From Gammaproteobacteria bacterium (GTDB lineage Bacteria; Pseudomonadota; Gammaproteobacteria; JAABTG01): 64,000 nucleotides of DNA. Below are positions 6,144 to 59,916 of this stretch, piece after piece (position 1 is the stretch's first letter; every line of letters begins with the position of its first letter). The notes beneath the pieces are model-generated. The model worked only from the letters and a program-made list of their open reading frames with translations. It searched no databases and was not told the origin of the DNA. Made by a program: the position numbers and the translations under genes. The stretch spans positions 2,108,001-2,172,000 of the forward strand of contig JAXHLS010000002.1 in the NCBI GenBank assembly GCA_034522055.1. The letters run 5' to 3'.

Positions 6144-8390
6144 GTGAACGATTTCGTCGGGCAGCTGAGAAAGCACTGGGTTCGCAGTGTCCTCAACGTG
6201 TTGGTGGTGGCGTTCTTCCTGGTGCATGTCAGCGGCTATATGTCCTTCGGTATCATCGAGCGCATGGAGAACCTGGCCTACGATGTGAGGCTGCTGCTCA
6301 CCATGCCCCATACCAAGGATGAACGCATCGTCATCGTCGATATCGACGAGAAAAGCCTCGCCGAGGTGGGACGCTGGCCGTGGCCACGCACCACCATGGC
6401 ACGCATGGTGGAGCAGCTGTTCGGCCACTATGACGTGGCCTTGGTGGGTTTCGATGTGGTGTTCGCCGAGCCCGACGAAAGCTCCGGCCTGAAGGTGCTG
6501 GAGGACCTCGCGGAGAACGAACTCAAGGAGGATGAGACCTATCTGGCGGCCCTGGAGAAGGTGCGCCCTGAACTCGCCTATGATCGACTGTTCGCCGCCA
6601 GCCTCACTAATCGGCCCATCATACTCGGCTACTATTTCAGCGTGAAGACCGGTGACGACGATGCCCTGAGGACCGGGCAACTGCCGCCGCCGACCTTCGA
6701 GAAGGGCTTCTTTCGCGGTCGCAACATCCCCTTCCCGCAGGCCGACGGCTATGGCGCCAATCTTCAGGAGCTCCAGGAGGCCGCTGCCGGCGCCGGGCAC
6801 TTCAACCCCACCACCGATCGGGATGGTCTCGTCAGGCGCGTGCCCCTGCTCTATGAGTTCGAGGGCGACTACTACGAGGCTCTGTCCCTGGCCATGGCAC
6901 GGGCGGTGCTCGGCGTGGACCGGGTGGAGCCGGTGTACGCCGGTTCCACCCTAGGCAGCGAGAGCTATAGCGGCCTCGAATGGCTGCGAGTGGGTAACCG
7001 TACCATCCCGGTGGACGCCGAGGTCCGGGCCCTGGTGCCCTACCGGGGTCCCAAGGGCAGTTTCCCCTACGTCTCGGCGGTAGACGTGCTGGAGGGGCGG
7101 GCAGATCCGGCGAAGCTGCAGGGCACCATCGTTCTGGTGGGTACGTCCGCACCCGGCCTGCTGGATCTGCGGTCCACGCCGGTGCAGGAGGTCTATCCCG
7201 GGGTGGAGATCCACGCCAATCTCATCGCCGGCATCATCGACAACGTGCTCAAGGAAAAACCGGCCTATACCCTGGGCGCCGAGTTCATCATCGTCATCCT
7301 CGCCGGTATCCTGATGTTCCTCACCTTCGCCCTTATGGGGCCGGGCCGCGCGACCCTGGTGACCCTGATGCTGGCCGCCACCGTCATCGCCATCAACGCC
7401 ATGGTGTGGACCCAGGGTAACCTGGTGCTTCCCATCGCGGCGGGCCTGCTGATGATCGCGGTGCTCTATCTGGTGAACATGTCCTACGGCTTCTTCGTGG
7501 AATCCCGGGGCAAGCGTCAGCTCGCCGGCCTGTTCGGACAATACGTGCCGCCCGAGCTGGTGGACGAGATGAGTGACGATCCAGATCGTTACACCCTGGA
7601 GGCCGAGAGCCGCGAACTCACGGTGTTGTTCTCGGACGTGCGGGGATTCACGACCATCTCCGAGGGCCTGGAGCCGAAGGAGCTGTCGGAACTCATGAAT
7701 CACTTCCTGACGCCCCTGACCCAGGTCATCCACCAGCACCGTGGCACCATCGACAAGTACATGGGGGATGCCATCATGGCCTTCTGGGGGGCGCCCCTGC
7801 CGGAGCCGGACCATGCCCGCCACGCCCTGGTGGCCGCCCTGGAGATGGTGGCGAAGCTGGATGCCATGCAGCCGGAGTTTCGTGCCAAGGGCTGGCCGGA
7901 GGTGCGCATTGGCGTGGGCCTCAATACCGGTTCCATGAGCGTAGGCAACATGGGCTCGGAGTTTCGTATGGCCTATACCGTGCTCGGCGATGCGGTGAAC
8001 CTGGGCTCGCGGCTGGAGGGACTGACACGCCAGTACGGTGTCGACATCATCGTCAGTGAGACCACCAAGGATGCAACGCCCGATTATGTGTACCGGGAAC
8101 TCGACCGGGTGCGGGTCAAGGGCAAGGACAAGCCGGTAGCCATCTTCGAGCCCGTGGGGTTGCGTGGAGCGCTGGACAAGGCCACCCGGGATGAACTGGC
8201 CATCTATGAACAGGCTCTCAAACTCTACCGCGGCCAGAACTGGGACATGGCGGAGCTGCAGTTTCTCAACTTGCAGCACATGTCGCCCTTCAGGGCCGTC
8301 TACAAGATCTACGCGGAACGCATCGTGCTGTTCCGCCAACAGCCACCGGGAGACGAATGGGATGGCGTATTCACCTTCAAGACCAAGTGA
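6144..8390 (+). CDS. CHASE2-domain adenylate cyclase (class III)
   Basis: 748-residue membrane enzyme. A membrane helix near residues 14-32 leads to a periplasmic CHASE2 sensor (about 45-370, with IVIVDIDEKSLAEVGRWPW). Three hydrophobic helices follow (about 375-450), then a cytosolic class III cyclase domain (about 490-680). The cyclase keeps the first metal-binding aspartate in VLFSDVRGFTTISEG, the second in DKYMGDAIMAFWG with the adenine-selecting lysine, and YTVLGDAVNLGSRLEG. It should make cAMP in response to an unknown periplasmic signal. A cAMP phosphodiesterase gene lies 37 bases downstream. It could alternatively make cGMP, but the lysine favours ATP. Confidence 0.92.
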   Translation: MNDFVGQLRKHWVRSVLNVLVVAFFLVHVSGYMSFGIIERMENLAYDVRLLLTMPHTKDERIVIVDIDEKSLAEVGRWPWPRTTMARMVEQLFGHYDVALVGFDVVFAEPDESSGLKVLEDLAENELKEDETYLAALEKVRPELAYDRLFAASLTNRPIILGYYFSVKTGDDDALRTGQLPPPTFEKGFFRGRNIPFPQADGYGANLQELQEAAAGAGHFNPTTDRDGLVRRVPLLYEFEGDYYEALSLAMARAVLGVDRVEPVYAGSTLGSESYSGLEWLRVGNRTIPVDAEVRALVPYRGPKGSFPYVSAVDVLEGRADPAKLQGTIVLVGTSAPGLLDLRSTPVQEVYPGVEIHANLIAGIIDNVLKEKPAYTLGAEFIIVILAGILMFLTFALMGPGRATLVTLMLAATVIAINAMVWTQGNLVLPIAAGLLMIAVLYLVNMSYGFFVESRGKRQLAGLFGQYVPPELVDEMSDDPDRYTLEAESRELTVLFSDVRGFTTISEGLEPKELSELMNHFLTPLTQVIHQHRGTIDKYMGDAIMAFWGAPLPEPDHARHALVAALEMVAKLDAMQPEFRAKGWPEVRIGVGLNTGSMSVGNMGSEFRMAYTVLGDAVNLGSRLEGLTRQYGVDIIVSETTKDATPDYVYRELDRVRVKGKDKPVAIFEPVGLRGALDKATRDELAIYEQALKLYRGQNWDMAELQFLNLQHMSPFRAVYKIYAERIVLFRQQPPGDEWDGVFTFKTK

Positions 8391-32117: not shown

Positions 32118-33314
32118 ATGGCGATTACCCTGAAGATTGCGCGCAGCGAAAAAGAGGTGGATGACGCCCTGTGGTTGCGCCATGAGGTCTTCGTCATCGA
32201 GGACGGCAAATTCGGCGGCAAGGCGCTGCCGGGGGCGCGCATCCTGGACCGTTACGATGCCTTTCCCAACGTCCACAACATCGTGGTCTACGAAGATCAG
32301 GAGCCGGTGGCGACCATGCGCATGGTCAAGGAATCCGCCGTCGGCCTGCCCACCGATGAATACTTCGATTTCGGGGATTACCGGACTCAGGCAGCCAGGG
32401 AATTGAAGGCGGCCGGCCAATCCGACTGCGGCGTGGTGCTGGGCAGTGCCGGGATGCTTGCCATCAGAGGTCCGTGGCGGGTCCGCCGTGATGTCATCCG
32501 CGCCATGTTCCGAATCGCCGCCGGCGTGGCCATGAACAACGCCGTCACCCACATCGTGGTGGCCGTGAATCACGAAACGGCGGGCATGTACCGGCGCCTC
32601 GGCTTCCAGCGTCTGACCGACAAGTTCTGGGTGGAAGAAGTGGGCAACTTCATCGTCCCCCTGGCGGGTTCCGTGGAAGGCTTTCATAAGTGGGCCTTCG
32701 GGGACCTGCCACCGACGCCTCTGAATACCTTCCAGGACAGTTTCGAGCGTTTCTTCGTCAGGGCGGGAGAGGTGGTATTCAGTGAAGGTGATCTCGGAGA
32801 CATGGCGTTCATCGTCGATCAGGGTATCGTCCGGATCTCCCGCCTGAGCCCGGCTGGGGAAGAGTTGACCCTTGCCCGACTCACCCGCGGCGACCTGTTC
32901 GGGGAATTGGCGCTGGTGGACGAGGCACCGCGTTCGGCCACGGTGACGGCGGTGACCGATTGCGAACTCATCACCCTGGATCGGGAGGCCTTCATGGACG
33001 AACTCTATGCCGAGCCCGAACGCATCCGGGCGCTGCTCAATCTGTTCTCCCGGCGCATCCGGCGCATGGATGATTTTGCCATGGTGCTGGCATTTTCACC
33101 GCTGGACCAGCGCCTGGACTTTGCCCTGCGGATGGCCAAGACTCGATCCAGTCAGGACCGCAAGGACAAACGCATCAAGATATTCAAGGGAGGGGTGGAT
33201 GAATTCGCCACTCTGGCGGGGGTGGATCACGACACGGTGCTGCGTTATCTGGAAGAACGGCGGGACAAGGGTGAGCTGGACTACTCGCCGCGGCATATCC
33301 GTTTCTTCGCCTGA
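32118..33314 (+). CDS. GNAT/autoinducer-synthase-like acyltransferase fused to a cyclic-nucleotide-binding domain and HTH
   Basis: 398 residues. Residues about 1-190 form a GNAT-type acyltransferase like FeeM/LuxI-fold N-acyl synthases (DDALWLRHEVFVIEDGKFGG, VATMRMVKES, VNHETAGMYRRLGFQRL). Residues about 205-320 are a CNB domain whose phosphate-binding cassette FGELALVDEAPRSATV keeps the Arg-Ser expected for cAMP contact. Residues about 325-398 resemble a CRP-type helix-turn-helix (FATLAGVDHDTVLRYLEE). An acyltransferase, cAMP sensor and DNA-binding module in one chain is unusual. Neighbours are a CNB-patatin and a PEP-CTERM-type acyltransferase. Confidence 0.85.
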   Translation: MAITLKIARSEKEVDDALWLRHEVFVIEDGKFGGKALPGARILDRYDAFPNVHNIVVYEDQEPVATMRMVKESAVGLPTDEYFDFGDYRTQAARELKAAGQSDCGVVLGSAGMLAIRGPWRVRRDVIRAMFRIAAGVAMNNAVTHIVVAVNHETAGMYRRLGFQRLTDKFWVEEVGNFIVPLAGSVEGFHKWAFGDLPPTPLNTFQDSFERFFVRAGEVVFSEGDLGDMAFIVDQGIVRISRLSPAGEELTLARLTRGDLFGELALVDEAPRSATVTAVTDCELITLDREAFMDELYAEPERIRALLNLFSRRIRRMDDFAMVLAFSPLDQRLDFALRMAKTRSSQDRKDKRIKIFKGGVDEFATLAGVDHDTVLRYLEERRDKGELDYSPRHIRFFA

Positions 33315-33362
33315 GGCCGGCCCGGTCGCCGGACAGTCCTCCCAATCCCCAGGCGGCCATCC

Positions 33363-35600
33363 ATGACGGCGATCCCCAGCGCCGCCATCCCGGATCCCCT
33401 CGACCAGGTGGAACTGTTCGCCCAGCTCAGTGCCGACGGGCGGCGCCACCTGGCGGGGGCCCTGCAGACGCGCCATCTGGCGGCGGGTGCCGAACTCTTC
33501 CGTCACGGTGATACCGGGGAATGTCTTTATATCCTCACGGCCGGCAGCCTCGAGGTGGTGGTGGAGGGCGGCGACGGTAGTACCCGTAGTCTTGCGCGCA
33601 TCGGACCCCACCAGTGTGTAGGAGAGATGGCACTGCTGGCGCCGAACGCGCGGCGTACGGCCACCGTCAGGGCCCTCGAAGACTCCCGTCTGCTCGAACT
33701 CTCCAAGGCTTCCTTCGAGCACCTGCTGGCGGCAGAGCCCTCCCTGCGGCGTCTCATCGGTCAGGTGCTGCTGCATCGCCTGCCCGGCCTGCATCTGGCC
33801 ACCTCGCGGTTGTTCGGCGACCTCGACCAGCAGCTCCTGGAGGAACTTCATTCCCACTTTTTCTGGGTGAGTCTGGCGCGCGGGGAAGCCCTGTTCCGGC
33901 AGGGTGAACCGGCCAAGGCGGTCTACTACGTCGTCAATGGCCGCCTGCAGGTGAGTGTCGCAGAGCAGGGTCGGCAGATGGAACTGGAGCAGGTAGGGGG
34001 CGGCCACGTGGTGGGGGAGATCGCCATGGTCACCGGCGAGTCCCACTCGGTGACGGCCACCGCGCTGCGGGACAGCGACCTCATCGGTCTGTCCCAGGCG
34101 GGCTTCGAGCAGATCATGGAGCGTAACCCGCGGGCTGCCGTCTATGTGGTGCGCGGCATGCTTGCCGAACTGGGGGGCCGCGAATCCTTCCACGAGCGGG
34201 CCAAGGACAGCCCGGTGCGCACCATTACCGTCGTACCCCTGGAGCCGCGGGTGGAGGATTTCGGGCGGCGCCTCGCCCGGGCGCTCAACGCTGGCGCTAA
34301 GACTCTGTACCTGAACGCCCGCGTCTTCGACCGTTTTCACAACTCGGGGGCCGCTCAATTGGCGGAGGATGACCCCCGCGCGCTGTACCTGCGGAAATGG
34401 TTCAGCCAGCAGGAGGAGAGCCGGGTGCACGTGGTCTACGCCACGGATCCGGAAGACAGCCCCTGGACCCGGCGCTGTATCCGCCAGGCGGATCGCATCC
34501 TGCTGGTGGCGCCGGCCGATGCCTCCCCGCGATTGCGGGCGGTGGAGCGCCTGGCGGGGGAACTGGCCGCCGGCGTGTCGACCGAATTGGTGCTACTCCA
34601 CGACGACGACGGCCAGCTGCCCAAAAATACCCGGGCATGGCTGGAGCCACGACGGGTGGCTGCCCACCATCACCTGCGCCAGGGTCGGGAGGCCGATGTC
34701 GCCCGCCTGGGGCGTTTCCTCACCGGGCGCTCCGTGGGTCTGGTGCTGGGGGCGGGGGGGGCCCGCGGCCTCGCCAATATCGGGGTGTTCAAGGCCCTGC
34801 TCGAGGCGGGCGTGCCGGTGGACTACGTGGGCGGGGCGAGCATGGGGGGCTTCCTGGCCGCCCTGGTGGCGGCCGGCTTCGACTACGAGCAGATCGTGCG
34901 TTTCGTGCGCCTGGTGCTGGTGGACAAGCCCCGGGGCTTCGGCTACACCTTACCCGTCATATCCATGATGTCGGTGCGCAAATCGGAACAGCGCTTCCGC
35001 GACATCTTCGGTGATCGCGACATCGAGGACCTGTGGCTCAATTTTTTTACCGTGTCGGTGAACATCACCAATCCGGCCGTGAAGATCCATCGCGAGGGAC
35101 CGGTGTGGCGGGCGGTACGGGCGAGCCTCGCGATCCCCGGCCTCATCGCGCCGCTGTTCGAAAAGGGCGAACTGCTGGTGGATGGCGCGCTGCTGAACAG
35201 CGTGCCCGTGGATGTCATGCGGGACTTGAACCCGGGCCCGGTCATCGCCAGCGACGTCGGCAAGGTCCCGGCGCTGGCGGTGGACCCGGAGCTGGATAAC
35301 TGCCCGTCGCCCGGCCGCCTGTTGTGGCAGCGCCTGATGCCGGGGGCAAGCAACCGTGAGGTGCCCCGCATGGGCGCCATCCTGCTGCGCTGCATGGATG
35401 TCTCCAGTCACCTCAACAAGCGCCGCAACCGCGACCTTGCGGACCTCTATCTCACGCCGCCGGTGGAGGGCTACCGCATTCTCGACTTCGACCGCGCCGA
35501 CCAGCTCATGGAAACCGGCTACACTTATGCGGTGCGTGCCTTGGAGCAGGCCGATCTGAGCGACCTCCTGCCCGCGCATGAACCCCGCCCCAAGGATTGA
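33363..35600 (+). CDS. Patatin-like phospholipase with two N-terminal cyclic-nucleotide-binding domains (NTE-like)
   Basis: 745 residues. CNB1 (about 15-130) has cassette GEMALLAPNARRTATV with an arginine. CNB2 (about 145-260) has GEIAMVTGESHSVTAT, lacking the arginine, so it may not bind nucleotide. A middle region (about 280-450) resembles the NTE linker. The patatin domain (about 455-690) has the oxyanion loop GAGGARGLANIG, nucleophile serine GGASMGGFLAAL and catalytic aspartate VDGALLN. It should deacylate phospholipid or lysophospholipid, gated by cAMP or similar. It lies 48 bases after the CNB-acyltransferase. Confidence 0.9.
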   Translation: MTAIPSAAIPDPLDQVELFAQLSADGRRHLAGALQTRHLAAGAELFRHGDTGECLYILTAGSLEVVVEGGDGSTRSLARIGPHQCVGEMALLAPNARRTATVRALEDSRLLELSKASFEHLLAAEPSLRRLIGQVLLHRLPGLHLATSRLFGDLDQQLLEELHSHFFWVSLARGEALFRQGEPAKAVYYVVNGRLQVSVAEQGRQMELEQVGGGHVVGEIAMVTGESHSVTATALRDSDLIGLSQAGFEQIMERNPRAAVYVVRGMLAELGGRESFHERAKDSPVRTITVVPLEPRVEDFGRRLARALNAGAKTLYLNARVFDRFHNSGAAQLAEDDPRALYLRKWFSQQEESRVHVVYATDPEDSPWTRRCIRQADRILLVAPADASPRLRAVERLAGELAAGVSTELVLLHDDDGQLPKNTRAWLEPRRVAAHHHLRQGREADVARLGRFLTGRSVGLVLGAGGARGLANIGVFKALLEAGVPVDYVGGASMGGFLAALVAAGFDYEQIVRFVRLVLVDKPRGFGYTLPVISMMSVRKSEQRFRDIFGDRDIEDLWLNFFTVSVNITNPAVKIHREGPVWRAVRASLAIPGLIAPLFEKGELLVDGALLNSVPVDVMRDLNPGPVIASDVGKVPALAVDPELDNCPSPGRLLWQRLMPGASNREVPRMGAILLRCMDVSSHLNKRRNRDLADLYLTPPVEGYRILDFDRADQLMETGYTYAVRALEQADLSDLLPAHEPRPKD

Positions 35601-35619
35601 CCGCAAACCCTCAGCGACC

Positions 35620-36417
35620 ATGACCGACTATCGCATCTCCAGCGCCCTGGGCACCTTGTGGCCGGTGCGCCTGTTCTATCGCACCGCCGTGGGGCACCTG
35701 TTCCACCGCTATTTCCAGGTGGTGGCCGCGGACACCGACGCCCTGCGGGCAGAGGTCTTCCGCATCCGTTACGACGTCTATTGCGACGAACTGGGTTGGG
35801 AGGACCGGGCACGTTATCCCGACCGCCAGGAGACGGACGAGTACGACCGCTACGCCCTCCATTCCCTGCTGCTGCACAAGCCCAGTAACACCTATGCGGG
35901 CTGCGTGCGCTTGGTCCAGGTGCCCGGCGATCCCCCAGGCCTGCAACTGCCCTTCGAGAGCGCCTGCCGGGACCATCTCTTCGAAGATATCTACGCCCCC
36001 CTGGCCCGCGACCGCCGCGCCGTGGGCGAGATCTCCCGCCTCGCCGTGCGCGAGCGCTTCCGCCGTCGCGAGAACGAGCAGCACCGCCCCGAGGGCCAGG
36101 TCCCCGAGCGCAATGGCCGCACCGATCCGCGGCGCCGCACCCCCCCCATCGCCATGGGACTCTACCTGGCCGCCGCCTGCAGCGGCCTGCAGGCCGGCAA
36201 GGAGGGCGTCTTCGCCCTCATGGAGCCCCGCCTCGCCAGGCGCCTGCGCACCTATGGCCTCTATTTCCGCCAGGTGGGCGAGGGCATCGAGCACCGCGGC
36301 ACCCGCGCGCCCTTCTACATCAGCCGCGACGACCTCTACGGCCGCATCTCGCCGCGGGTGCGGGGGTTTCTGGACGTGGTGTGCGGGGATGTGCGGTTCG
36401 GTGGGAATGGGCGCTGA
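35620..36417 (+). CDS. PEP-CTERM/exosortase-associated acyltransferase
   Basis: About 265 residues of the N-acyl amino-acid-synthase-like family found with exosortase/PEP-CTERM systems. Features: FQVVAADTDALRAEVFRIRYDVYC split by family insertions, DEYDRYALHSLLLH, YAGCVRLVQVP, and FYISRDDLYGRISPRVRGF near the end. ATG 35620 avoids a 23-base overlap with the patatin gene; ATG 35578 is possible. PEP-CTERM proteins at 41.2 and 55.0 kb and the PrsT lipoprotein at 56.1 kb support the system assignment. The acyl product is unknown. Confidence 0.85.
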   Translation: MTDYRISSALGTLWPVRLFYRTAVGHLFHRYFQVVAADTDALRAEVFRIRYDVYCDELGWEDRARYPDRQETDEYDRYALHSLLLHKPSNTYAGCVRLVQVPGDPPGLQLPFESACRDHLFEDIYAPLARDRRAVGEISRLAVRERFRRRENEQHRPEGQVPERNGRTDPRRRTPPIAMGLYLAAACSGLQAGKEGVFALMEPRLARRLRTYGLYFRQVGEGIEHRGTRAPFYISRDDLYGRISPRVRGFLDVVCGDVRFGGNGR

Positions 36418-36474: not shown

Positions 36475-36685
36475 ACGTGCCCGTCGTCCGGCCCCAGATC
36501 CGCTATACCTACGAGGACTAAAGGAGTACTGGGTCGTCGACCCGGCGGCCGGGATGGTGCAGGCCCACGTCTTCGGCGAGGCCGGTACCAGCGGGGTGTC
36601 GGAATTCTTTACATCGACCCCGCTGCGCTCGGGCCTCCTGCCCGCTCTCGCCATCGACCTGGCGGAGGTCTTCCGCCTCGACTAG
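36475..36685 (+). pseudogene. Uma2/DUF820 endonuclease-like gene with internal deletion
   Basis: Starts like a Uma2 protein (VPVVRPQIRYTYEDY) and then jumps, with a frame change near 36521, to the family's C-terminal part (KEYWVVDPAAGMVQAHVFG ... LPALAIDLAEVFRLD). The middle, about 100 residues containing the active site, is missing. A more decayed copy of the same C-terminal part is at 39805-39945. Non-functional remnant. Confidence 0.7.
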
Positions 36686-36747
36686 CCGGCATCGCCGTCC
36701 GCCCGGCGCCGCTTCACTGGACCCCGTGCGTTATCTCCTCACTTCCC

Positions 36748-41199: not shown

Positions 41200-41847
41200 A
41201 TGAACAACAATGGTCTGAAGCATTGCGTCCTCGCCCTGGTACTCGGCGGCCTCAGCGGTACCGCCCAGGCGACGCTGATAACCAACGGCATCTTCGATAG
41301 CGACCTCTCGGGATGGAGCATCGACACCACACTTCAGGGCGGGACATCCGACGGCGTGATCTGGAGCGATGACGCGGTGAACTGGGACGGCGGCCTGGCG
41401 CGGGTCGGCCAGCCCGGCACGCCCGGCGTGACGGAGTTCTTCCAGGTCTTCAACATCCCTACCGGATCCCAGGCCCTCTCGGTAAGCTTCGAGTACCTGT
41501 GGCAGAGCAACAAACCCACGATAGAGGACTTCTTCCAAGTGGAGTTGACCTACGACACCAACGGGGGCAGCCAGACGGTAGTACTGCTGAACGAGGGAAG
41601 CGTGAGCGGCAACTTCAGCCTGCCGCAAACCGCGTTCTCCCAGACCATAGCCTTGTCCGACCTCGCCATCGTCGCGCCCACCGGGGAGGTACGCTTCACC
41701 CTGACCGAGAACAACAGCAGCGCGGGCACCCGGGTGCACTTGGACAACGTAGCCGCCCAGGCGGTCCCCGTCCCCGCCACCCTCGCCCTGATGCTTCTGG
41801 GTGTCGCCGGCATCGGCTGGAGCCGGAGCCGCTCCCGCAAGGCCTAG
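41200..41847 (+). CDS. PEP-CTERM sorting-domain exported protein 1
   Basis: 215 residues. Signal peptide (about 1-25, cleaved near AQA-TL), a jelly-roll-like extracellular domain (ITNGIFDSDLSGWSID is typical of carbohydrate-binding-like repeats in these proteins), and the C-terminal tripartite sorting signal: VPVPATLALM, a hydrophobic helix and a basic tail SRSRSRKA. The motif is VPxP rather than the canonical VPEP. An exosortase (EpsH-type, not in this window) would process it for surface or exopolysaccharide association. Lone gene under a sigma-54 promoter. Confidence 0.92.
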   Translation: MNNNGLKHCVLALVLGGLSGTAQATLITNGIFDSDLSGWSIDTTLQGGTSDGVIWSDDAVNWDGGLARVGQPGTPGVTEFFQVFNIPTGSQALSVSFEYLWQSNKPTIEDFFQVELTYDTNGGSQTVVLLNEGSVSGNFSLPQTAFSQTIALSDLAIVAPTGEVRFTLTENNSSAGTRVHLDNVAAQAVPVPATLALMLLGVAGIGWSRSRSRKA

Positions 41848-44182: not shown

Positions 44183-45181
44183 TCAAAGCGCCTTGAGGAA
44201 GGCGACCAAGGCATCATCGGGTTTGTAGATCCCGTGGGAGCCCTCGTGCGGTGTGGTCTTGGCAAGGACTCTTTCCTTCATCGCCAAGTCGGCCTCCAGA
44301 TAAATGTGCGTGGTCTGCACCGACTCATGGCCCAGCCACAGGGCGATCACAGTTGTGTCGACGCCCGCCTGCAACAATTCCATGGCGGCGGTATGTCGCA
44401 GAAGGTGTGGAGACACTCGTTTGCCACGAAGTGACGGACAGGTTTCACGGGCGGTTGCAACATGCTTGGCCAGCAGATACTGGAGTCCGTCGTTACTCAG
44501 GCGAGTACCGCGGCGGTTGGGAAAGAGGATCCGCCCTTCGCCCACTGCCGGTTCTGCCAACCAGGCCTGGAGTACCGCCACCGTCTGACGGGCGAGTGGA
44601 ACGGCGCGTTCCTTTCGGCCCTTGCCCAGCACATGCACATAGGCACCGCTGCCGAGATGGGTATCCTCGCGCGCCAGTGCGGTCAGTTCGGACAACCGCA
44701 ACCCGGTTTGTACCGCCAGCAAGATCCAAGCGTGATCACGCCGGCCAGACCAAGTGGATGGGTCCGGGGCGGCGAGTAGAGCGTCGATTTCCGGCCGGGG
44801 CAGGTAATGGACCTGCTCGTGCGTACAGCGTTGGGCCGGAATCGCCAAGACCCGCTGGATCTGCTCGGCATGCTCCGGCAGTTCGAAGGCAGCGTAACCG
44901 AACAGAGAACGGATAGCTGTCAGGCGCAAATTGCGGGTGCGCGCCCCAATCCCACGCTGCGCCTGAAGATCGTCGAGAAAAATGCCAACAAGCGGCGCGT
45001 CGATCTCCTCCCAGGCCAGTTGGGACGGCTCTTTGCCAAGACGCGTCTTGGCGAACCGCAGCAGCAAGCGAAAGGTATCGCGGTAAGAGTGGATGGTGTG
45101 GGGACTGACTTGTCGTTGTTGCATCAGCCGCTGGGTGAAAAAGCGGGTCAACATGCTGGCGAAAGATGTTTGCGGCTTCAC
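44183..45181 (-). CDS. Tyrosine recombinase RitC, outer RIT
   Basis: 332 residues. Core-binding domain (about 8-100), catalytic domain with R in QTGLRLSELTAL, K in LGKGRKERAVPLA, HxxR in HLLRHTAAMELLQ, H in LGHESVQTTHIYLEAD with the nucleophile tyrosine. Start GTG 45181 overlaps the ritB stop (GTGA). Complete and probably active. Closest to the inner element's RitC in layout but clearly diverged. Confidence 0.9.
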   Translation of the reverse strand: MKPQTSFASMLTRFFTQRLMQQRQVSPHTIHSYRDTFRLLLRFAKTRLGKEPSQLAWEEIDAPLVGIFLDDLQAQRGIGARTRNLRLTAIRSLFGYAAFELPEHAEQIQRVLAIPAQRCTHEQVHYLPRPEIDALLAAPDPSTWSGRRDHAWILLAVQTGLRLSELTALAREDTHLGSGAYVHVLGKGRKERAVPLARQTVAVLQAWLAEPAVGEGRILFPNRRGTRLSNDGLQYLLAKHVATARETCPSLRGKRVSPHLLRHTAAMELLQAGVDTTVIALWLGHESVQTTHIYLEADLAMKERVLAKTTPHEGSHGIYKPDDALVAFLKAL

Positions 45182-45373
45182 GATACGTCCTCCCAGCGAT
45201 TTTCCAGCCGGTCCTTGGCCGCCTCCATTAGCTCGGGACAGGCCGACAGATACCAATAGGTATCCCGGACTTCGACATGACCAAGGAAGGCCGACAGTAC
45301 GGGTAGCCGCCGCTCCACGTCTTGCTTTTCCCGATACCATCGCACCACCGTCGAGATGGCAAAATGATGACGC
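45178..45373 (-). pseudogene. ritB of outer RIT, 3' part
   Basis: Encodes FAISTVVRWYREKQDVERR, LPVLSAFLGHVEVRDTYWYL and the end ENRWEDVS, containing the last catalytic His and Tyr region. It joins in frame to 48805-49545 across the inner RIT element, giving a 308-residue RitB. Stop TGA 45178 overlaps the ritC start. Confidence 0.9.
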
Positions 45374-45403
45374 TTATGCCGCGCGCGGCATAAGCGTCAT
45401 CAT
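45364..45403. repeat. Junction palindrome of the inner RIT element
   Basis: Perfect 40-base palindrome: target ATGATGACGC, spacer TTATGCCGCGCGCGGCATAA, inverted target GCGTCATCAT. The direct target copy recurs at 48805-48814 without a palindrome. Same layout and same (ritC) side as in the outer element. Confidence 0.93.
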
Positions 45404-45481
45404 GCCGACAACCGGATTATGCCGAATCGCGCTGCTGGAAAGCGGCTGGCGGCGCTCGGGCGGTGCCTCGAGTCGGCATAA

Positions 45482-46477
45482 TCACAGGCTCTCGAGGAAT
45501 GCCAGCAGCTGGTCGTCGGGGCGGTAGCGAGCCGGTTCGATCCCTCGGGGCGTGGTGCGAGACAGCGCCTGCTCCTTCAGGCGGAGGTCTGCATGGAGAT
45601 ACATCTGTGTCGTTTCCACGGACTCATGTCCCAGCCAGAGGGCAATCACCGATCGATCGATACCGTGCTGCAAAAGGTCCATCGCGGCGCTGTGCCTCAG
45701 GACATGGGCGGTCACTTTTTTGCGGCGCAGGGAGGGACAGCTTTGCTCGGCTATCTTGGCATGTTTTGCGACCAGGCGTTCGATCGCATCCCGGCTGAGT
45801 GGCCCGCCGCGGCTGCTGGGAAAGACTGGCTCTTGAGGCAAGCCGTTACGCTCTTGCAGCCAACTGCCCAACATGGCCGCAACTTCCTCACTCAGTGGTG
45901 TTGCGCGTTGTTTTCTGCCTTTTCCTAGGCATGTCACATGGGCCCCGGTTTCCAGAACGACGTCCTGACAGCGAAGTCCGATCAGTTCAGAAACCCGCAG
46001 TCCTGTCTGAACGGCCACGGTCAGGAAGGTTCGATCCCGGCGGCCGATCCACGTGGAGGGGTCTGGAGCGGCGATCAATGCATCGATCTCATCGCGGTGG
46101 AGAAACTCGATCAGCCGGCGCTCATGGCGTTTGTTCGGCATGGCCAGGACGCGCTGGCAAAGCAGCGCATGGGCGGGCTCCTCCAAAGCGACATATTGAA
46201 AGAACGAATGGATTGCAGCCAGGCGGGCGTTGCGGGTGCGCGCGCTGTTTCCCCGCTCCTGTTCGAGATGATCGAGGAACTGCCCGATGAAGGACGCATC
46301 GAGATCCTCGAGCCGCAGTTTCGAGGGCGCTGTGCCGAGGCGTTCTGCTGCGTAACGCAGAAGAAGACGGAAGGCATCACGGTATCCAGCGATGGTGTGT
46401 CCGCTGGCGCAGCGTTGCCGAAATAGGCGCTCCGTGAAAAAGGATTGAAGCATGGCGGGAAAGCTGTTGGCGATCAT
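45482..46477 (-). CDS. Tyrosine recombinase RitC, inner RIT
   Basis: 331 residues. R in QTGLRVSELIGL, K in LGKGRKQRATPLS, HxxR in HVLRHSAAMDLLQ, H/Y in LGHESVETTQMYLHAD. N-terminal core-binding domain with SGHTIAGYRDAFRLLLRYAA. Start overlaps the ritB stop by 4 bases. Appears complete. The 78 bases between the IR and its stop hold no gene. Confidence 0.9.
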   Translation of the reverse strand: MIANSFPAMLQSFFTERLFRQRCASGHTIAGYRDAFRLLLRYAAERLGTAPSKLRLEDLDASFIGQFLDHLEQERGNSARTRNARLAAIHSFFQYVALEEPAHALLCQRVLAMPNKRHERRLIEFLHRDEIDALIAAPDPSTWIGRRDRTFLTVAVQTGLRVSELIGLRCQDVVLETGAHVTCLGKGRKQRATPLSEEVAAMLGSWLQERNGLPQEPVFPSSRGGPLSRDAIERLVAKHAKIAEQSCPSLRRKKVTAHVLRHSAAMDLLQHGIDRSVIALWLGHESVETTQMYLHADLRLKEQALSRTTPRGIEPARYRPDDQLLAFLESL

Positions 46478-47414
46478 GAGCGGACCTCCTCGGCCTTCTC
46501 CATCAGGCGCTTGGTGGCCAACTGGAGGAGTTCCGGGACGGCCTCGAGATACCAGTAGGTCTCATTCACGTGAACGTGGCCAAGATAGGTGGCAAGCTTG
46601 GGTAACTCGTGCTCGACATCGACCCCCGCGCGGTACCATTGCAGTAACGTGCGGGCCGCAAATCGGTGGCGCATGTCATGAATCCGCGGTCCGCGCCCGT
46701 GACCCTTCGCGGCGCCGCGCAGGCCGATCCGTTGGGAGAGTTTCGCGAAGGTGTAACGCGCGCTCCACTCCGTGATGCGTCGACCACGCTCGGAGAGAAG
46801 AATGCCGGTGTTTCCGGGCGGGGAAACACACGCGTTCTTTGCGTGTCGTAGCTTTCCAGCGCATCGCGGGTTGAGCGATGGACTGGCACCAACCGTGACT
46901 TGCCGAACTTCGTGCGTCGTATGGTAAGGATTCCTTGCTCCAAATCGACATCCACACGATCGAGCATGAGTGCTTCGCTTACGCGCATGCCCGTGACGGA
47001 AAGCAGGCCGAACAGCGTCAAGTAGCTGCGGGCTTTCAGGCCATTGGCGGAAGGCAGCCCTGCGGCGGCGCCAAGGAGCCGCTCGATCTCCTCATCGGTG
47101 TAAATGTAAGGAGGGTTACGGTGGTAGCGGTAAGGCAAGAGGCCATCCGGTGGGATCTCGGTGCGCGGATCGGTCACGCTGCGCCAGCGGGCGAAGCGAC
47201 GCACCACTCCCAGGCGCCCCGCCCATGTGGCTAGCTGCGCGTCGCGGGGTTGTTCGGCCCAGCGAATCGCCAACGCTCGGGTAATATAGGTCGCCTCGTT
47301 GGCTTCCAGAAAGGAGACAAAGTTATGTAGCAAGCTCGCCGGTATCCGCAGGCCAAATCCCAGGCTCCGGCGCACGGCAAGATACTCCTCCAAAGCGTCA
47401 CGTAGCTGGTTCAT
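46474..47414 (-). pseudogene. ritB of inner RIT with a frameshift
   Basis: From ATG 47414 the RitB frame reads MNQLRDALEEYLAVRRSLGF through the catalytic arginine (SVTGMRVSEALML) and TKFGKSRLVPVHR. Near 46803, in TTCTTCTCTCC, the frame must shift to continue LSERGRRITEWSARYTFAK, IHDMRHRFAARTLLQWY, YLGHVHVNETYWYLEA and end at 46474. One missing base explains it. Sequencing error, recent decay or programmed shifting are all possible; the catalytic His and Tyr lie after the shift. Confidence 0.85.
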
Positions 47415-48655
47415 TGCCCACCCCCTATGTCCGGCCACGGTGGGGCAAGGGAGCGGAGACCGGAGAGGTCGACTTTGGCGTAAATCTCCGTGGTGTTCGG
47501 GGAGCGATGTCGGAGCACTTGGCCGATCTCGCTCATGGATGCACCCCCTCGGAGCATCTCCGTCGCCAGGGTGTGGCGGAGTAGGTGGGCGCCCTTGGCA
47601 GGCGGTTGGAGACTGGCGCGTTCCAGAGCGCGCCGAACAATGGTCGAGACGGTTGATGGCCCGGCGAAGCCCGAATGGGGTGCCTTCATGCGAACGAAGA
47701 CCCGGCGCGAGCGGGTCTCGGGACGATCCCGACGCAAGTAGGCAGCCATCGCCTCTCCCGGTTCGGTGAGCAACGGTAAGCGCTCATGCACGAAGCCTTT
47801 CCCGCGAATCATCACTTCGCCGGCTCGCCAATTGATGTCATCGATTTCGAGGGCGACGACCTCGCCGGCACGTAGTCCAAGGCGGGCGAGGAGGACCAGG
47901 ACCGCATAGTCGCGTCTCCCTGTCGCTGTCGTGCGATCGCAGCCATCCAACAGGCGTTGGATCTCCTCCGCGGTCAGGAATTTGGGAACGGACGACAAGC
48001 GCCAATCCGCGACGGCCGGCACACAAGCGGCCAGATCGATCTGGGTCTTCGCCTCGCGCAACAAGAATCGAAAGAACGAGCGCAGTGCCGTGACTAGAAG
48101 CTGCGCTCTTTTTGCGCCTTGGCAGCGAGCGTGGGTAAGGACGTAGGTGGAGATGTCCGATCCCGTCAGCTCCTCGATACGCAAGGGGCCGTCGCCGAAA
48201 TGATGGACCAGAAAACCATGGGCAGCGGGCCGGTAGTTCAACACCGTCGCCGTGGTCAGGCCGCGTTCGGTTCGCAGATAGCGCTCGTACCGGCGCTCGA
48301 GCTCGGCCAGCGGCGAGGTGTCACAAACCGGCTCAGGAAACGGAATGACCCCCTGACTCTGCAGATACGCAACAAACCTTAGGGTGGTCGGCCTTTGACC
48401 TCGCTGCAGCTGTCCCAGGCGCTGCAACTCCTTCAGGAACCGATCGACAATGTGCTCGCTGAGCTGCTCAGCTGTGAGCTGCTCCTCTTGCAGCCACCAA
48501 CCAAATTCGACGACCCAGAGAAGCTTCAATCGGACTGTCGACGAAGCGTAGGCTTCCTCGACCAGTGAGGTCGAGAACGAATCGAGGTGTTCCCGCAGCG
48601 GGTTACTGTGTAAGCGCTCGAGGAAATCGCCCTGTTTTAAGAACTCTTTGAGCAT
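47411..48655 (-). CDS. Tyrosine recombinase RitA, inner RIT
   Basis: 414 residues, the first and longest recombinase of the trio. N-terminal extension (about 1-120), core-binding domain (about 125-210), catalytic part with R in LLARLGLRAGEVVAL, HxxR in HLLRHTLATEML and LRHRSPNTTEIYAKVD. Stop overlaps the ritB ATG. The promoter should lie in 48656-48782, next to the terminal repeat. Confidence 0.9.
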   Translation of the reverse strand: MLKEFLKQGDFLERLHSNPLREHLDSFSTSLVEEAYASSTVRLKLLWVVEFGWWLQEEQLTAEQLSEHIVDRFLKELQRLGQLQRGQRPTTLRFVAYLQSQGVIPFPEPVCDTSPLAELERRYERYLRTERGLTTATVLNYRPAAHGFLVHHFGDGPLRIEELTGSDISTYVLTHARCQGAKRAQLLVTALRSFFRFLLREAKTQIDLAACVPAVADWRLSSVPKFLTAEEIQRLLDGCDRTTATGRRDYAVLVLLARLGLRAGEVVALEIDDINWRAGEVMIRGKGFVHERLPLLTEPGEAMAAYLRRDRPETRSRRVFVRMKAPHSGFAGPSTVSTIVRRALERASLQPPAKGAHLLRHTLATEMLRGGASMSEIGQVLRHRSPNTTEIYAKVDLSGLRSLAPPWPDIGGGQ

Positions 48656-48804
48656 GTCTCTTCTCCTTCCTGACCCTATTGTCAGTCCGGAGAGATGACC
48701 GGATTATGCCGCGTCTGAAAACCGTGCTATGGCCGTAACTAGGCAAAACTAGGAGAGAAAAAAGCAAAGGATTGCCGATCACTCGGCATAATCCGGTTGT
48801 CGGC

Positions 48805-54961: not shown

Positions 54962-55050
54962 TTACTCTTGGCGAAGGCGACTTAAACGTGGTCATACGAG
55001 TCCACCTCAACCAAACACGTACACTCGAATACGCTCTAAGGAGACGACAA

Positions 55051-55983
55051 ATGAACAATCTCTCTAAACTTTCCCTGGCTCTGGCGGCCACCCTGGCCGC
55101 CGGTCCGGCAACCGCTAACAACGTTTTTCTGGATTTGACACCCTTTGGTGGTGGTTTTGAAGTAAGCCCCCCCAACACAGCAGATGCGAATGACACCACC
55201 GGTGTTTTCAACGAATTCGGTTTCAGCCAGATCCTCGCAACGTCTGTTTATGACTTCAGTGACAGTTCAGTTTTCGGTTCTTTTTACGATACGAACATCA
55301 TCGGGAATAATGCGACAGCCAACACTCTTGCTTACGCTGGTGTCCCCACTTCCGGGACCGCGCTGGACGGTGTTTCCACCGTCAACCTCGTCAATCCCGA
55401 CTGCTCGGCTGGCCAGTGTGACCTCGACGCGTTGTCGCCCCTGGTACCGCCGCTTGGAAGCGATAGCGAAGGTTTTCTCCAGAGTTGGGACCTGCAGGTC
55501 GAGTACACGTTCTTTGGTAACTTGACCGCCGCCGGCCCGCAATATAATTCAGGCACTTTTGACGTCTTCTTTAATGACTTTAGTGTCCCAGGGCTGAATG
55601 ATGTTCTGGCCTTTTCCGGGGCTCTGACCGGTTCAGATGTTCAGCTCTCGAACCTGGATCTGTTCTTCGACATCACGTTTGCGGTAGATGACTTCCTCTG
55701 GATAGAGGACTCCAGCGCGCCTGGCACTTTCCGTGATGCCGCCGATGTCATTGCTGGAGGCGGAAACCTTCCGACCCTTACCTTGGATACCAACGTGAAT
55801 CCGCCCATTCCCACAACTAACCAGCTCTTGGCGGTGGTTGATGCCGGCGGCAATACCAACGCAATCCGTCAGACTACCCTTGACGGCTCGATAACGGCTG
55901 CAGTGCCTGAGCCCTCTACCCTCGCGCTGTTCGGGGCTGCCCTGATAGGCTTCGGGGCGTATGCCAAGCGCCGCCGCAGCTAA
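55051..55983 (+). CDS. PEP-CTERM sorting-domain exported protein 2
   Basis: 310 residues. Signal peptide (about 1-23, cleaved near ATA-NN), an acidic beta-rich domain without recognisable repeats, and the canonical C-terminal sorting signal VPEPSTLALFGAALIGFG with basic tail AKRRRS. ATG 55051 follows AAGGAG. It should be processed by an exosortase and displayed or secreted with exopolysaccharide. Single gene between a sigma-54 promoter and a strong terminator. AT-richer than housekeeping neighbours. Confidence 0.93.
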   Translation: MNNLSKLSLALAATLAAGPATANNVFLDLTPFGGGFEVSPPNTADANDTTGVFNEFGFSQILATSVYDFSDSSVFGSFYDTNIIGNNATANTLAYAGVPTSGTALDGVSTVNLVNPDCSAGQCDLDALSPLVPPLGSDSEGFLQSWDLQVEYTFFGNLTAAGPQYNSGTFDVFFNDFSVPGLNDVLAFSGALTGSDVQLSNLDLFFDITFAVDDFLWIEDSSAPGTFRDAADVIAGGGNLPTLTLDTNVNPPIPTTNQLLAVVDAGGNTNAIRQTTLDGSITAAVPEPSTLALFGAALIGFGAYAKRRRS

Positions 55984-56122: not shown

Positions 56123-58822
56123 ATGCGGAAGCCTCTTTCAGCCCTACTCCTCTCAACCCTAGTTATGGGGGCCTGCGGACCGGGGCTATCCGATACGGAT
56201 TATGTAGAACGAGCCTCCCGCCATGCGAGTGAGGGTGACCTCAGCGCCGCGGCCATCGAATTGCGGAACGCTCTGGAACTGAACCCACAGAATCCCCAGG
56301 CACGGCGGATGTTGGGCAGCACGGAGCTGCAAATGGGCAACGGCGCGGCTGCGGAAAAGGAACTGAGGCGGGCCCTCGAGCTGGGTGCGGACGAATCCCT
56401 GGTGCTGCCCGCCTTGGGGAAGGCACTCCTGCTTCGGGGCAAATACAGTGAAGCGATTACACTCCTGAGAGACCGCCAGTTCGAGGAGATTGCTTCGCAG
56501 CAGACGGCGCCACTACCACCGAAGGTGCTGGGAGAACTCGCCGCGACGGCCTCGTCGGCCCAGCTTGCACTGGGAAACACCGACGGTGTGGCGGTATTAT
56601 TGGAAGAGGCCATGCGATTGGCCCCTGAAAGCCCCCATGTTCGAACAGTTTACGCTCAGATTCTCGCGCGGCGAGGCCAGACCTCCGAGGCAAAGGAGGC
56701 CTTGCAGTCGGCGGTAGAGGCGGCACCAGAGTACGCCCCCGCTTGGAGCCTCCTGGGGGATGTGGCCAAACGTCTGGGCCAGCGCGAGTTGGCACTCAAG
56801 GCGTACTCGAGTGCAGTTGACAACAGCTGGAACAATGCGGCAGAACGTCTAAAGCGCGCCCTGCTGCTGATTGAATTGAGAAGATTCGATGATGCCCGGC
56901 CCGATATACGAGCGTTGGAAGCGAACGACCTGGTGGCGGCCGAGTATCCGCAAGGGTTGATCCACTTCTACAAGAAAGATTACGAGGCGGCGCTGAACTC
57001 GTTTTCACAAGTGTTGAAGGCGGATCCTAACTATTTCCTGGCTCCGTTTTTCGCGGCTGCCGCCCATTATGAGATGGGTACCATCGAGCAGGCGGAGAGC
57101 CTGCTGGAACGGTTTGTCTACCGGAATCCAAACTATTGGCCTAGTCGCAAGATGCTCGCGCTCATGCGGACGCAACAAGGGCGGTTCCAAGATGTCCTGG
57201 AATTGCTGAGGCCGCTCGAAAACATGGATACCAAGGACACTTTCGCATTAAATTTGTTGGTGAGGGCGCAGCTCCGCACTGGTAATACTGATCAAGCCCT
57301 TGCTGTCCTGCAGAAGATCGTTCGTGTCCAGCCCCAGTCCGCGGAGGCTATGTCCAATCTCGGTCTGGGGCTCCTGATCCAAGGAGAAGCAGATACCGGC
57401 ATCGAACACCTCAGGGCCGCCAGGGAACTGGATGATGATTTTCTGTTGGCGGACGTCAAACTGATTCTGCACTCTATCCAACAAAATAAGTTGGACGAAG
57501 CGCTGGCCGAGGCCGAGGGTTTCGAAGAGCGTAATCCTGACAGAGCGTTGCCTTTGATCCTGCTGGGGCGAGTCCATGCCGAAAGAGGGGAGAAGGTACT
57601 TGCCAGGGAGAAGCTGGAGCTGGCGAACTCAATGGCCCCGGGAGATCCCGCGGCATTGACGCTTCTTGCGGGCTTGGCGCTCGAGGAGGGCGATGAGACG
57701 CGGGCGCGGGAGCATTATTCTCAGTTGCTGCAGCAGCATCCGGGACATCTGCAGACTCTACTGCGTTTGGTTGCGTTAGCGGACCGCCAGGGTGATCAGG
57801 CGGCGATGGAGCGTCATTTGAAAACGGCGACGGATGCTCATCCGGATGCTATCGCTCCAAGTCTGTTATTAAGCCGTTTATGGACATTACAGGGAAAAAC
57901 GGCTGAGGCCCTGGATTTGCTTGAAGGGCTGAGAGACGTTGATGCGGCGCGGGAGGAACCAAGATACCTGTACGCGTTGGGGAATCTGCAACTGGCCACG
58001 GGCGTGACTGAGAGGGCTAGGCGGACGCTTGAGCGCGTTGCCAGGCTGGCGCCGAACTCGCCAGCGGGGGCCTATGCGTATGCGCGGGTCCTTGCGGCAG
58101 CAGGTGAAAACGATGCCGCCGAGCGCGAGTTGCGGCGCGCCATCGCCATCGAGGGTGAGCATATTCCAGCCCGGATGGCCTACACGCGGCTCCTCTTATC
58201 GGAAGGAAAGATCGAGCAAGCTCGCCAAAGCCTGGATACGCTACGCGACTTGGCGGGAAACGCGCCCGGAGTCCTGCTCCTGGAAGGGGCGTTAGCCGAC
58301 TATGCCGGGCGGCCCGAAGAGGCTGAAAAGGCATTTAGCGAGCTCTTCGCTGATGTTGGCAGTACGGAGACCATGTTGTTCTTGGCCGCACAGCGTGCGA
58401 AGGCCGGTGACCGTGCTTCGGCTTTCAAGGTTGTGAAGGACTGGGTCGAAGAACATCCTAAGGATGTCAAAGCGCGGTTTGCGCTGGCTCAGGCGTATCT
58501 GAAGGATGAGGATCGTGAAAACGCGATAGTTCAGTATCAAGCCATTCATTCCCTCATGCCAGATAACGCTGTCGCCCTCAACAATCTAGCGTATAACATG
58601 ATGGAAACGGAGCCAGAAAAAGCCCTTGAGTATGCTAAGCAGGCTTCGCAGATTCGGCCTGACTCGCCCGATGTCCTGCACACGTATGCGACTGTTTTGG
58701 CTCGGAACGATGAACTCGCGGATGCGCAACGGACCATCGAAAGGGCACTGCAACTCGCTCCTGACAATGAAATACTGATACAGACTGAATCAGAGATCCG
58801 CCGTCTACTTGGTGAACGTTGA
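56123..58822 (+). CDS. prsT: PEP-CTERM system TPR-repeat lipoprotein PrsT
   Basis: 899 residues. Signal peptide with lipobox VMGAC (cysteine near residue 19), then TPR repeats along the full length (for example AAIELRNALELNPQNPQARR, ALAVLQKIVRVQPQSAEAMS, VALNNLAYNMMETEPEKALE). This fits the long TPR lipoprotein that marks PEP-CTERM/exosortase gene sets. Probably a periplasmic scaffold for exopolysaccharide export or protein sorting. It follows a PEP-CTERM gene but is separated from it by a terminator. Confidence 0.9.
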   Translation: MRKPLSALLLSTLVMGACGPGLSDTDYVERASRHASEGDLSAAAIELRNALELNPQNPQARRMLGSTELQMGNGAAAEKELRRALELGADESLVLPALGKALLLRGKYSEAITLLRDRQFEEIASQQTAPLPPKVLGELAATASSAQLALGNTDGVAVLLEEAMRLAPESPHVRTVYAQILARRGQTSEAKEALQSAVEAAPEYAPAWSLLGDVAKRLGQRELALKAYSSAVDNSWNNAAERLKRALLLIELRRFDDARPDIRALEANDLVAAEYPQGLIHFYKKDYEAALNSFSQVLKADPNYFLAPFFAAAAHYEMGTIEQAESLLERFVYRNPNYWPSRKMLALMRTQQGRFQDVLELLRPLENMDTKDTFALNLLVRAQLRTGNTDQALAVLQKIVRVQPQSAEAMSNLGLGLLIQGEADTGIEHLRAARELDDDFLLADVKLILHSIQQNKLDEALAEAEGFEERNPDRALPLILLGRVHAERGEKVLAREKLELANSMAPGDPAALTLLAGLALEEGDETRAREHYSQLLQQHPGHLQTLLRLVALADRQGDQAAMERHLKTATDAHPDAIAPSLLLSRLWTLQGKTAEALDLLEGLRDVDAAREEPRYLYALGNLQLATGVTERARRTLERVARLAPNSPAGAYAYARVLAAAGENDAAERELRRAIAIEGEHIPARMAYTRLLLSEGKIEQARQSLDTLRDLAGNAPGVLLLEGALADYAGRPEEAEKAFSELFADVGSTETMLFLAAQRAKAGDRASAFKVVKDWVEEHPKDVKARFALAQAYLKDEDRENAIVQYQAIHSLMPDNAVALNNLAYNMMETEPEKALEYAKQASQIRPDSPDVLHTYATVLARNDELADAQRTIERALQLAPDNEILIQTESEIRRLLGER

Positions 58823-58883: not shown

Positions 58884-59759
58884 CTATTGCGCTGCGCTTC
58901 GAAAGTGCTTCAATTGACGACGTGCAATAATAAGTCCGAGTCGTTGTAAGGGATTCTGATTGCCGGCCGGACGCCAAGTCTTTGTCAGCTTATTCCGGTA
59001 TGCGTCAAACTGAAGCCCCCAGGGTGCGTAATATACCCTCCCGCGTTTCAGAAGGATCTTGAGCGCTTGAGTTGCGGCCAACCCGGCACAAATCTCGCAA
59101 GCCATGGAGGTGGAAGGACCCTTTTGGGCTACAAAATCCACGGCCTGAGGATATACGAGATATCCTCGTTGGAGCATGGCAGGCGAAAGACCGAGGAGGA
59201 AACGCACCAACTGCTCGTCCTGTGACTGACCTTCCAACCTGAAGTACTCCTCAAAGGTCATCTTGCCAGGCAGGAAGTTCACCACTGCTGAGCCCATACC
59301 AAGAGGGGCGGCAGTAACGGCGGGAATTTTCTTCTCGGTACTCTTGGCGAACACCAGGCGCCTTGCCTCGACGGCGAAAAAGTCGAGGCCGTCCACGTAG
59401 ATGTCCACGTCCTTGAGGAAGTCATCCACGTTGTCGGCGGAGACGCCCTTGGGAAACGTGCGAACGTTCAGTTCGGGGTTGATGTCGAGGGCCCGCTCGG
59501 CGATGACCTCTACCTTCTCACGCCCCACGGTGCTCATCATGGCACCCACCTGGCGGTTGAAGTTGGCCACTTCGAACACGTCCAGATCGGAGATGTTGAA
59601 GGCACCGATTCCCAGCCGGGCGAGAGTGAGGCAGTGGGCACCGCCCACGCCGCCGACACCCGCAATGGCCACCCGCTTGCCGCGGAGTGTCTCCTGCTCT
59701 TCGGGAGTGAGCCACCCGATGTTTCGCGAGAAAGCTTTCTGGTAGGAGAAGCTTGACAT
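58884..59759 (-). CDS. ThiF/HesA/MoeB-family adenylyltransferase (E1-like)
   Basis: About 291 residues. Nucleotide-binding loop VAIAGVGGVGGAHCLTLARLG, FNRQVGAM (the conserved R), ALDINPELNV, and DGLDFFAVEARRLVF. The C-terminal half has FFEYF-like EEYFRLEGQSQDE and a single MACEICAGLAATQAL cysteine pair instead of two full zinc CxxC pairs. ThiF/MoeB enzymes adenylate a C-terminal glycine or amino acid. Its substrate here is unknown; no ThiS/MoaD-like gene is nearby. ATG 59759 sits in GGGAGGATG. Convergent with prsT. Confidence 0.85.
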   Translation of the reverse strand: MSSFSYQKAFSRNIGWLTPEEQETLRGKRVAIAGVGGVGGAHCLTLARLGIGAFNISDLDVFEVANFNRQVGAMMSTVGREKVEVIAERALDINPELNVRTFPKGVSADNVDDFLKDVDIYVDGLDFFAVEARRLVFAKSTEKKIPAVTAAPLGMGSAVVNFLPGKMTFEEYFRLEGQSQDEQLVRFLLGLSPAMLQRGYLVYPQAVDFVAQKGPSTSMACEICAGLAATQALKILLKRGRVYYAPWGLQFDAYRNKLTKTWRPAGNQNPLQRLGLIIARRQLKHFRSAAQ

Positions 59760-59916
59760 CCTCCCGCCCCCTTTGGATGAATTACTGAAGTGTGAGAGTT
59801 TAGCAGACACTACTGTCGCAATGACGATGCACCGCACAGCGGTGCAACCTCGTCCCCCCGTCATTTCGGATGCCAGAACAGAGTAAGCTGGCATCCCGAG
59901 GAAAAAACATCACTTT

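Follow-up and report, generated by a model that had tools for sequence, protein, structure and literature searches.

When two different acyltransferase genes flank a phospholipase gene, and cyclic nucleotide-binding (CNB) domains occur in two of the three products, do the three genes constitute a lipid pathway of their own under the control of cAMP, or do they belong to a larger cellular system? The question is raised by the genes P0001, P0002 and P0003 at positions 32118-36417 of the window, i.e. the whole 64,000-nucleotide stretch of gammaproteobacterial DNA that was analysed. The three genes lie on the same (+) strand, 3' of gpsA, and are separated by 48 bp (P0001-P0002) and about 20 bp (P0002-P0003); a sigma-70 promoter scan of the cluster region found no promoter. 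The first-pass annotation had regarded them as a pathway in which the phospholipase supplies acyl chains, the acyltransferases convert these to N-acyl products, and cAMP from a CHASE2 cyclase in the window controls the process. The adjacency of the three genes and the domains assigned to them were confirmed by Pfam and NCBIfam searches, by alignment with CRP and by structure matches of an AlphaFold model, and are as follows:

32118..33314, + strand: P0001, 398 aa, with a FeeM-type N-acyltransferase domain (aa 1-192), a CNB (aa 209-318) and a CRP-type winged helix (aa 326-398)
32757..32999, + strand: CNB of P0001, with a complete cassette GELAL(x)nPRSA including Glu263 and Arg272
33093..33311, + strand: winged helix of P0001, with a recognition helix that lacks the CRP RE...R motif
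33363..35600, + strand: P0002, 745 aa, an NTE-type patatin phospholipase with two CNBs, NTE_Ploop (PF24179) and patatin (PF01734) domains
35620..36417, + strand: P0003, TIGR03694 PEP-CTERM/exosortase system-associated acyltransferase (exosort_acyl)

P0002 has the features of an NTE-type patatin, namely the CNBs, the NTE_Ploop and a patatin domain with the motifs GAGGARG, GASMG and DGA, the latter two being those of the Ser/Asp dyad. The Arg of the cyclic-nucleotide cassette is kept in its first CNB (GEMAL..RRTATV) and is replaced in its second (GEIAM..SHSVTA), likewise in the sister species; thus the earlier statements that one of the two patatin CNBs lacks this residue, and that the first CNB of the cluster, that of P0001, keeps its Arg-Ser cassette (GELAL..PRSA), were both correct. 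P0003 scores 227.3 bits against TIGR03694, for which the curated cut-off is 111.95, and carries an E-x-S-R motif. Comparison with the sister species indicates that the open reading frame listing places its start (35578) probably 42 bases upstream of the true one, the likely ATG being at 35620. Directly 3' of P0003, positions 36500-36690 (+) contain, as judged by eye, an apparent remnant of a Uma2-type (DUF820) gene with a broken frame.

P0001 unites an enzyme half and a sensor half. Its residues 18-182 match the FeeM family PF21926 (76.1 bits, cut-off 27), and residues 214-294 match PF00027 (87 bits, cut-off 27.5); the Pfam search reported no HTH family in this protein, and CRP-family proteins align to it as far as residue 391. 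In the AlphaFold model (mean pLDDT 78.6, with values of about 50-76 in the winged helix), residues 1-192 have FeeM (2g0b) as their best structural match (Z 17.7, rmsd 2.9, 171 aligned residues), with plain GNAT acetyltransferases close behind. Residues 196-394 match whole CRP-family structures with Z scores of 17-18, hence the C-terminal half resembles an entire CRP rather than a CNB alone; the high rmsd of these matches (about 7-8) may be put down to differences in the domain hinge and to the low-confidence tail of the model. The four conserved residues of LuxI-type enzymes (R21, D44, D47 and R68) are invariant in all 20 aligned rows, including P0001. The Glu/Arg pair of the LuxI E-x-x-R strand is replaced in the alignment by Ser and Met in P0001, the same replacement as in an OxzA-like protein (L069), so that catalysis in the P0001 clade may differ from that of LuxI, and an assignment of P0001 as a LuxI-type AHL synthase was rejected on the basis of these two columns. 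Membership in TIGR03694 was rejected as well, since P0001 scores 16.3 bits against the cut-off of 111.95 and falls into a separate clade, and no model in the NCBIfam search fits the protein. In the sensor half, all 13 winged-helix orthologues and the CNB-only relatives have Glu263 and Arg272 without exception, as would be expected if cyclic-nucleotide binding has been retained. Given its fold and this invariance, P0001 is probably a synthase of N-acyl amino acids that is controlled by a cyclic nucleotide, so this part of the first-pass proposal stands.

A single-sequence search of 398 genomes with the N-terminal domain of P0001 found few relatives, and the family of ~400-aa proteins emerged only by profile search, through which ten further genomes with the full architecture were identified among 369 gammaproteobacterial genomes; the nearest named relative of the source of the window in the genome set is a MAG labelled Thiotrichales bacterium S21.Bin127. 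A scan of genome_contigs (84,980 species) with the same domain returned 14 loci, most of which encode ~300-aa FeeM-CNB proteins without a winged helix. P0001 is 37-73% identical to the winged-helix orthologues and 26-32% identical to the CNB-only relatives. The 12 winged-helix rows group together as a single clade (100/99) in a 37-domain tree. Their neighbours there are OxzA-like proteins whose genes adjoin ThiF-nitroreductase fusions (92/89), and TIGR03694 forms a separate clade (100/100) far from them. No XrtA-type loci were seen around the ~300-aa FeeM-CNB proteins, whose partner in most loci is an LCM methyltransferase. An LCM-type SAM methyltransferase gene precedes the FeeM-CNB gene in distant taxa (L057 376-2210, L058 7066-8945, L059 7102-8909, L060 6024-8924, L062 7056-8906 and L066 7096-8933), a pairing which suggests N-acyl amino acids with a methylated carboxylate, formed under cyclic-nucleotide control.

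The surroundings of the P0001 orthologues point to a specific system. Outside the genus, 9 of the 11 P0001-type loci are situated within XrtA/PEP-CTERM exopolysaccharide loci, the other two being short contigs or contig ends. The accompanying genes encode OPX, a chain-length determinant, a tyrosine autokinase, the TIGR03016 outer-membrane protein, an ATPase, a polysaccharide deacetylase, FemAB, the TIGR03087 glycosyltransferase, PrsT, PrsK and PrsR, as identified by NCBIfam scores in L136 and for single genes of L140, L143 and L144, and by similarity to those in the other loci. The slot next to the OPX gene is taken by a P0001-type gene in L135, L136, L138 and L139, and by a TIGR03694 gene in L153 and L154. 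Furthermore, an exosortase is encoded in 10 of the 12 genomes that carry a P0001-type gene vs 107 of 357 other genomes (Fisher p = 0.0003, with no correction for kinship); no exosortase was found in the carriers G450 and G454, but PrsT or PrsK/PrsR are present in both. It is very probable, then, that the P0001 family belongs with the XrtA/PEP-CTERM system, and this is the system that P0001 and P0003 share; in the genome G486, one XrtA contig carries homologues of both within 27 kb, and no P0002-like patatin is encoded in that genome at E 1e-40. In the window itself, the informative neighbours are three genes that the first-pass annotation had omitted:

54988..55983, + strand: PEP-CTERM protein (exosortase substrate), PF07589, 29 bits, cut-off 20.7
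56123..58822, + strand: PrsT, XrtA/PEP-CTERM system TPR protein, TIGR02917, 582.9 bits, cut-off 312
58884..59894, - strand: ThiF/E1-like protein, PRK08223 family, 447 bits

These nearest genes of the system are located 19-23 kb downstream of P0003, and the exosortases are encoded elsewhere in the genome; the trio thus appears to lie outside the XrtA core locus in this genus, and a mobile-element region with recombinases and an IS21 element intervenes. The latter comprises a run of recombinase-like genes at 44183-50777 (-), of which 44183-45340 is XerC-like, and an adjoining IS21-type helper ATPase region at 50943-52802 (+). A second PEP-CTERM protein (TIGR02595, 19.6 bits, cut-off 16) is encoded in the mobile-element-rich region at 41200-41847 (+). 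We set aside the idea that the mobile-element region (about 37-53 kb) has split an ancestral cluster, as an unrelated gene follows P0003 in the sister species.

The ThiF-like gene bears on the chemistry to be expected. It has been shown that ThiF and nitroreductase partners turn N-acyl amino acids into oxazolones in the Tyz, Trz and Oxz systems, in which the FeeM-fold synthases TyzA and TrzA, with such partners, acylate Tyr and Trp, respectively (PMC10404671, PMC12856293), and that producers of N-acyl dehydrotyrosine carry an N-acyl amino acid synthase (NAS), ThiF and a nitroreductase (PMC12479983). Moreover, NAS genes near PEP-CTERM/exosortase genes have been known since 2011, as mentioned in PMC7293339 with reference to Craig et al. 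2011. Homologues of the ThiF protein of the window were found in 8 of the 12 carriers of P0001-type genes, and among non-carriers in 9 of 34 exosortase-positive and 0 of 34 exosortase-negative genomes. In L139, L140 and L145 they are encoded directly next to a P0001-type gene or at most 3 kb from one, and in L153-L156 beside TIGR03694, being fused to a nitroreductase domain in L153-L155. The set of synthase, ThiF cyclase and nitroreductase-type oxidase is complete in some orthologous loci (L139 and L140), and the divergent arrangement in L139 matches the tyzA / tyzBC layout of PMC10404671. The ThiF-nitroreductase fusions that directly adjoin TIGR03694 are OxzB/TrzS-like (L153 4612-6588, L154 4797-6779 and L155 6221-8194); they predict that XrtA loci give rise to acyl-oxazolones or dehydro products. 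In the genome of the window ThiF is present and the sole nitroreductase match is weak (27%), and the sister species yielded no ThiF match; consequently, we do not claim the late ThiF/nitroreductase steps for this organism.

We consider it moderately likely that P0001 serves the XrtA/PEP-CTERM system as an N-acyl amino acid synthase gated by a cyclic nucleotide, for which we infer the following ligand, substrate, chemistry, gating with its direction, and product. An amino acid, probably aromatic, would receive a long acyl chain carried by ACP or CoA, the transfer being made by the N-terminal FeeM/LuxI-fold domain; cAMP bound by the CNB would switch the enzyme by way of the CRP-type dimerisation helix. 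The winged helix, having lost the CRP recognition motif, would more likely play a structural or regulatory role than read DNA in the manner of CRP. P0003 would serve as a second synthase, of the TIGR03694 type, in the same system, and the ThiF-like cyclase and nitroreductase-type oxidase found by either synthase in relatives suggest conversion to dehydro-acyl amino acids or acyl-oxazolones. A possible source of cAMP lies in the window:

6144..8390, + strand: CHASE2-adenylate cyclase, PF05226 and PF00211

This protein, which the first-pass annotation had named as a possible controller of the cluster, is a genuine cyclase by its domains, and its sequence has the metal Asp residues together with a Lys/Asp pair of the kind usual in adenylate cyclases. 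Nothing ties it to the cluster, since the genome encodes five class III cyclases and 33 CNB stretches, so that no particular cyclase can be assigned. Near this gene, a CHASE2 domain fused to a protein kinase domain is encoded at 11410-14097 (-).

The three genes might still form a dedicated cAMP-gated lipid pathway, in which the patatin frees acyl chains for both acyltransferases, as initially proposed together with the expectation that the genes would co-occur elsewhere. The tight same-strand spacing and the CNBs in two of the three proteins would suit such a pathway, as would the conservation of the cluster in the sister species, which has all three genes (73% identity for P0001, 83% for P0002 and 86% for P0003); their adjacency there is deduced rather than read through, as a contig break falls inside the cluster, leaving gpsA and the P0001 orthologue at the end of one contig and the P0002 and P0003 orthologues at the end of another. 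Co-occurrence stops at this point, however. No trio was found outside the genus, where the P0001 orthologues (11 loci in ten genomes) are never beside a patatin; and among 49 genomes, 47 of which have a P0003 homologue, two outside the genus encode a P0002-like patatin (E 1e-40), in neither case adjoining the P0003 homologue. The notion of the trio as a widespread cassette was accordingly rejected outside the genus, and the lack of co-occurrence that the first-pass annotation had named as refuting its proposal is thus observed there. In addition, FeeM and the TyzA/TrzA relatives use acyl-ACP or acyl-CoA and not free fatty acids (PMC10404671, PMC12856293), so that the patatin is not needed for acyl supply, and one of its CNBs lacks the cassette Arg. 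We thus regard a phospholipase-fed pathway as very improbable; the three genes are better read as part of the XrtA/PEP-CTERM system of exopolysaccharide production and surface-protein sorting, with the patatin appearing, from its distribution, to be a genus-specific neighbour whose part in the system is unproven.

Two other readings place the weight on different halves of P0001. One takes the protein mainly as a CRP-family transcription factor, whose acyltransferase-fold domain senses or makes an acyl ligand and whose targets are the adjoining exopolysaccharide/PEP-CTERM genes. It would account for the complete CRP fold of the model including the winged helix, for the retention of the winged helix in all 12 full-length orthologues, and for the frequent position of the gene just upstream of the OPX gene, but the recognition helix argues against it: of 17 CRP-family rows drawn from the same genomes, 13 keep the RExxxR motif, whereas in the 12 full-length P0001-type proteins it is absent throughout and no other conserved basic motif was found, with a small difference in net charge between the helices of the two families (p = 0.03). 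This pattern is read as a loss of CRP-type DNA reading, a loss of DNA binding as such being unproven, and it leaves direct gene regulation by P0001, which had been suggested on account of its HTH, unsupported. Furthermore, a search upstream of the cluster genes gave no CRP-like palindrome, TGTGA-N6-TCACA is not in excess across the window (9 observed vs 16 expected), and PrsK/PrsR are already annotated as the two-component regulators of the system. A mainly regulatory P0001 is therefore unlikely; a bifunctional class in XrtA/PEP-CTERM loci, in which a cAMP-gated synthase of N-acyl amino acids (or acyl-oxazolone precursors) also acts on exopolysaccharide genes through its CRP module, is quite unlikely, though if it existed, it would tie cAMP, lipid signal production and biofilm matrix assembly into one polypeptide. 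In the other reading, the substrate is not a free amino acid: the acyltransferase domain, controlled by a cyclic nucleotide, would acylate some protein, lipid or polysaccharide belonging to the XrtA system, much as Pat of mycobacteria acetylates proteins. The breadth of the GNAT superfamily, the replaced LuxI Glu/Arg pair and the exopolysaccharide made by the locus are compatible with it; yet FeeM is the top structural match, albeit with plain GNAT acetyltransferases close behind, and P0001-type genes swap their slot with TIGR03694, whose relatives make N-acyl amino acids, so we deem acylation of a macromolecule highly unlikely.

An N-acyl amino acid synthase gated by a cyclic nucleotide would matter for the role and control of such synthases near PEP-CTERM/exosortase genes, for which the P0001 family, with its own cAMP sensor in the same slot, offers a handle. 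The family predicts that acyl amino acid output follows cyclic-nucleotide levels and is tied to exopolysaccharide/PEP-CTERM function, and the ThiF/nitroreductase neighbours predict oxidised or cyclised products in P0001-type loci. Our literature search, in which subscription papers were thinly covered, returned no paper combining PEP-CTERM, CNB and acyltransferase, and the text of Haft 2006 contains neither 'acyltransferase' nor 'cyclic nucleotide'; each part of P0001 is known, and it is their combination and its place in XrtA loci that appear to be undescribed in the literature searched.

The principle of a cAMP-gated GNAT enzyme is known from mycobacterial Pat, which like P0001 fuses a cNMP-binding domain to a GNAT-fold acyltransferase, but has the reverse domain order, a protein substrate and no winged helix; P0001 scores 39.4 bits against the NCBIfam model of Pat (cut-off 460), in the CNB region only. 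With the CRP/FNR regulators CRP, Vfr and GlxR, P0001 shares the full CRP fold (residues 196-394) and the complete cAMP cassette, and it differs from them in its N-terminal acyltransferase and in a recognition helix without RE...R. The ~300-aa FeeM-CNB proteins have the same two domains and the invariant cassette, but not the winged helix, and no XrtA neighbours were seen around them, LCM methyltransferases being their usual partners. The synthases FeeM and TyzA/TrzA/OxzA resemble P0001 in fold, in PF21926, in the conserved Arg/Asp/Asp/Arg residues and, as regards several P0001 orthologues, in their ThiF/nitroreductase neighbours, whereas no CNB or winged helix has been described in them and no XrtA loci are reported in the papers cited. 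TIGR03694, finally, has no sensor domain, keeps the E-x-S-R motif and forms its own clade, but belongs to the same superfamily as P0001, has ThiF partners and occupies the same OPX-adjacent slot in other genomes.
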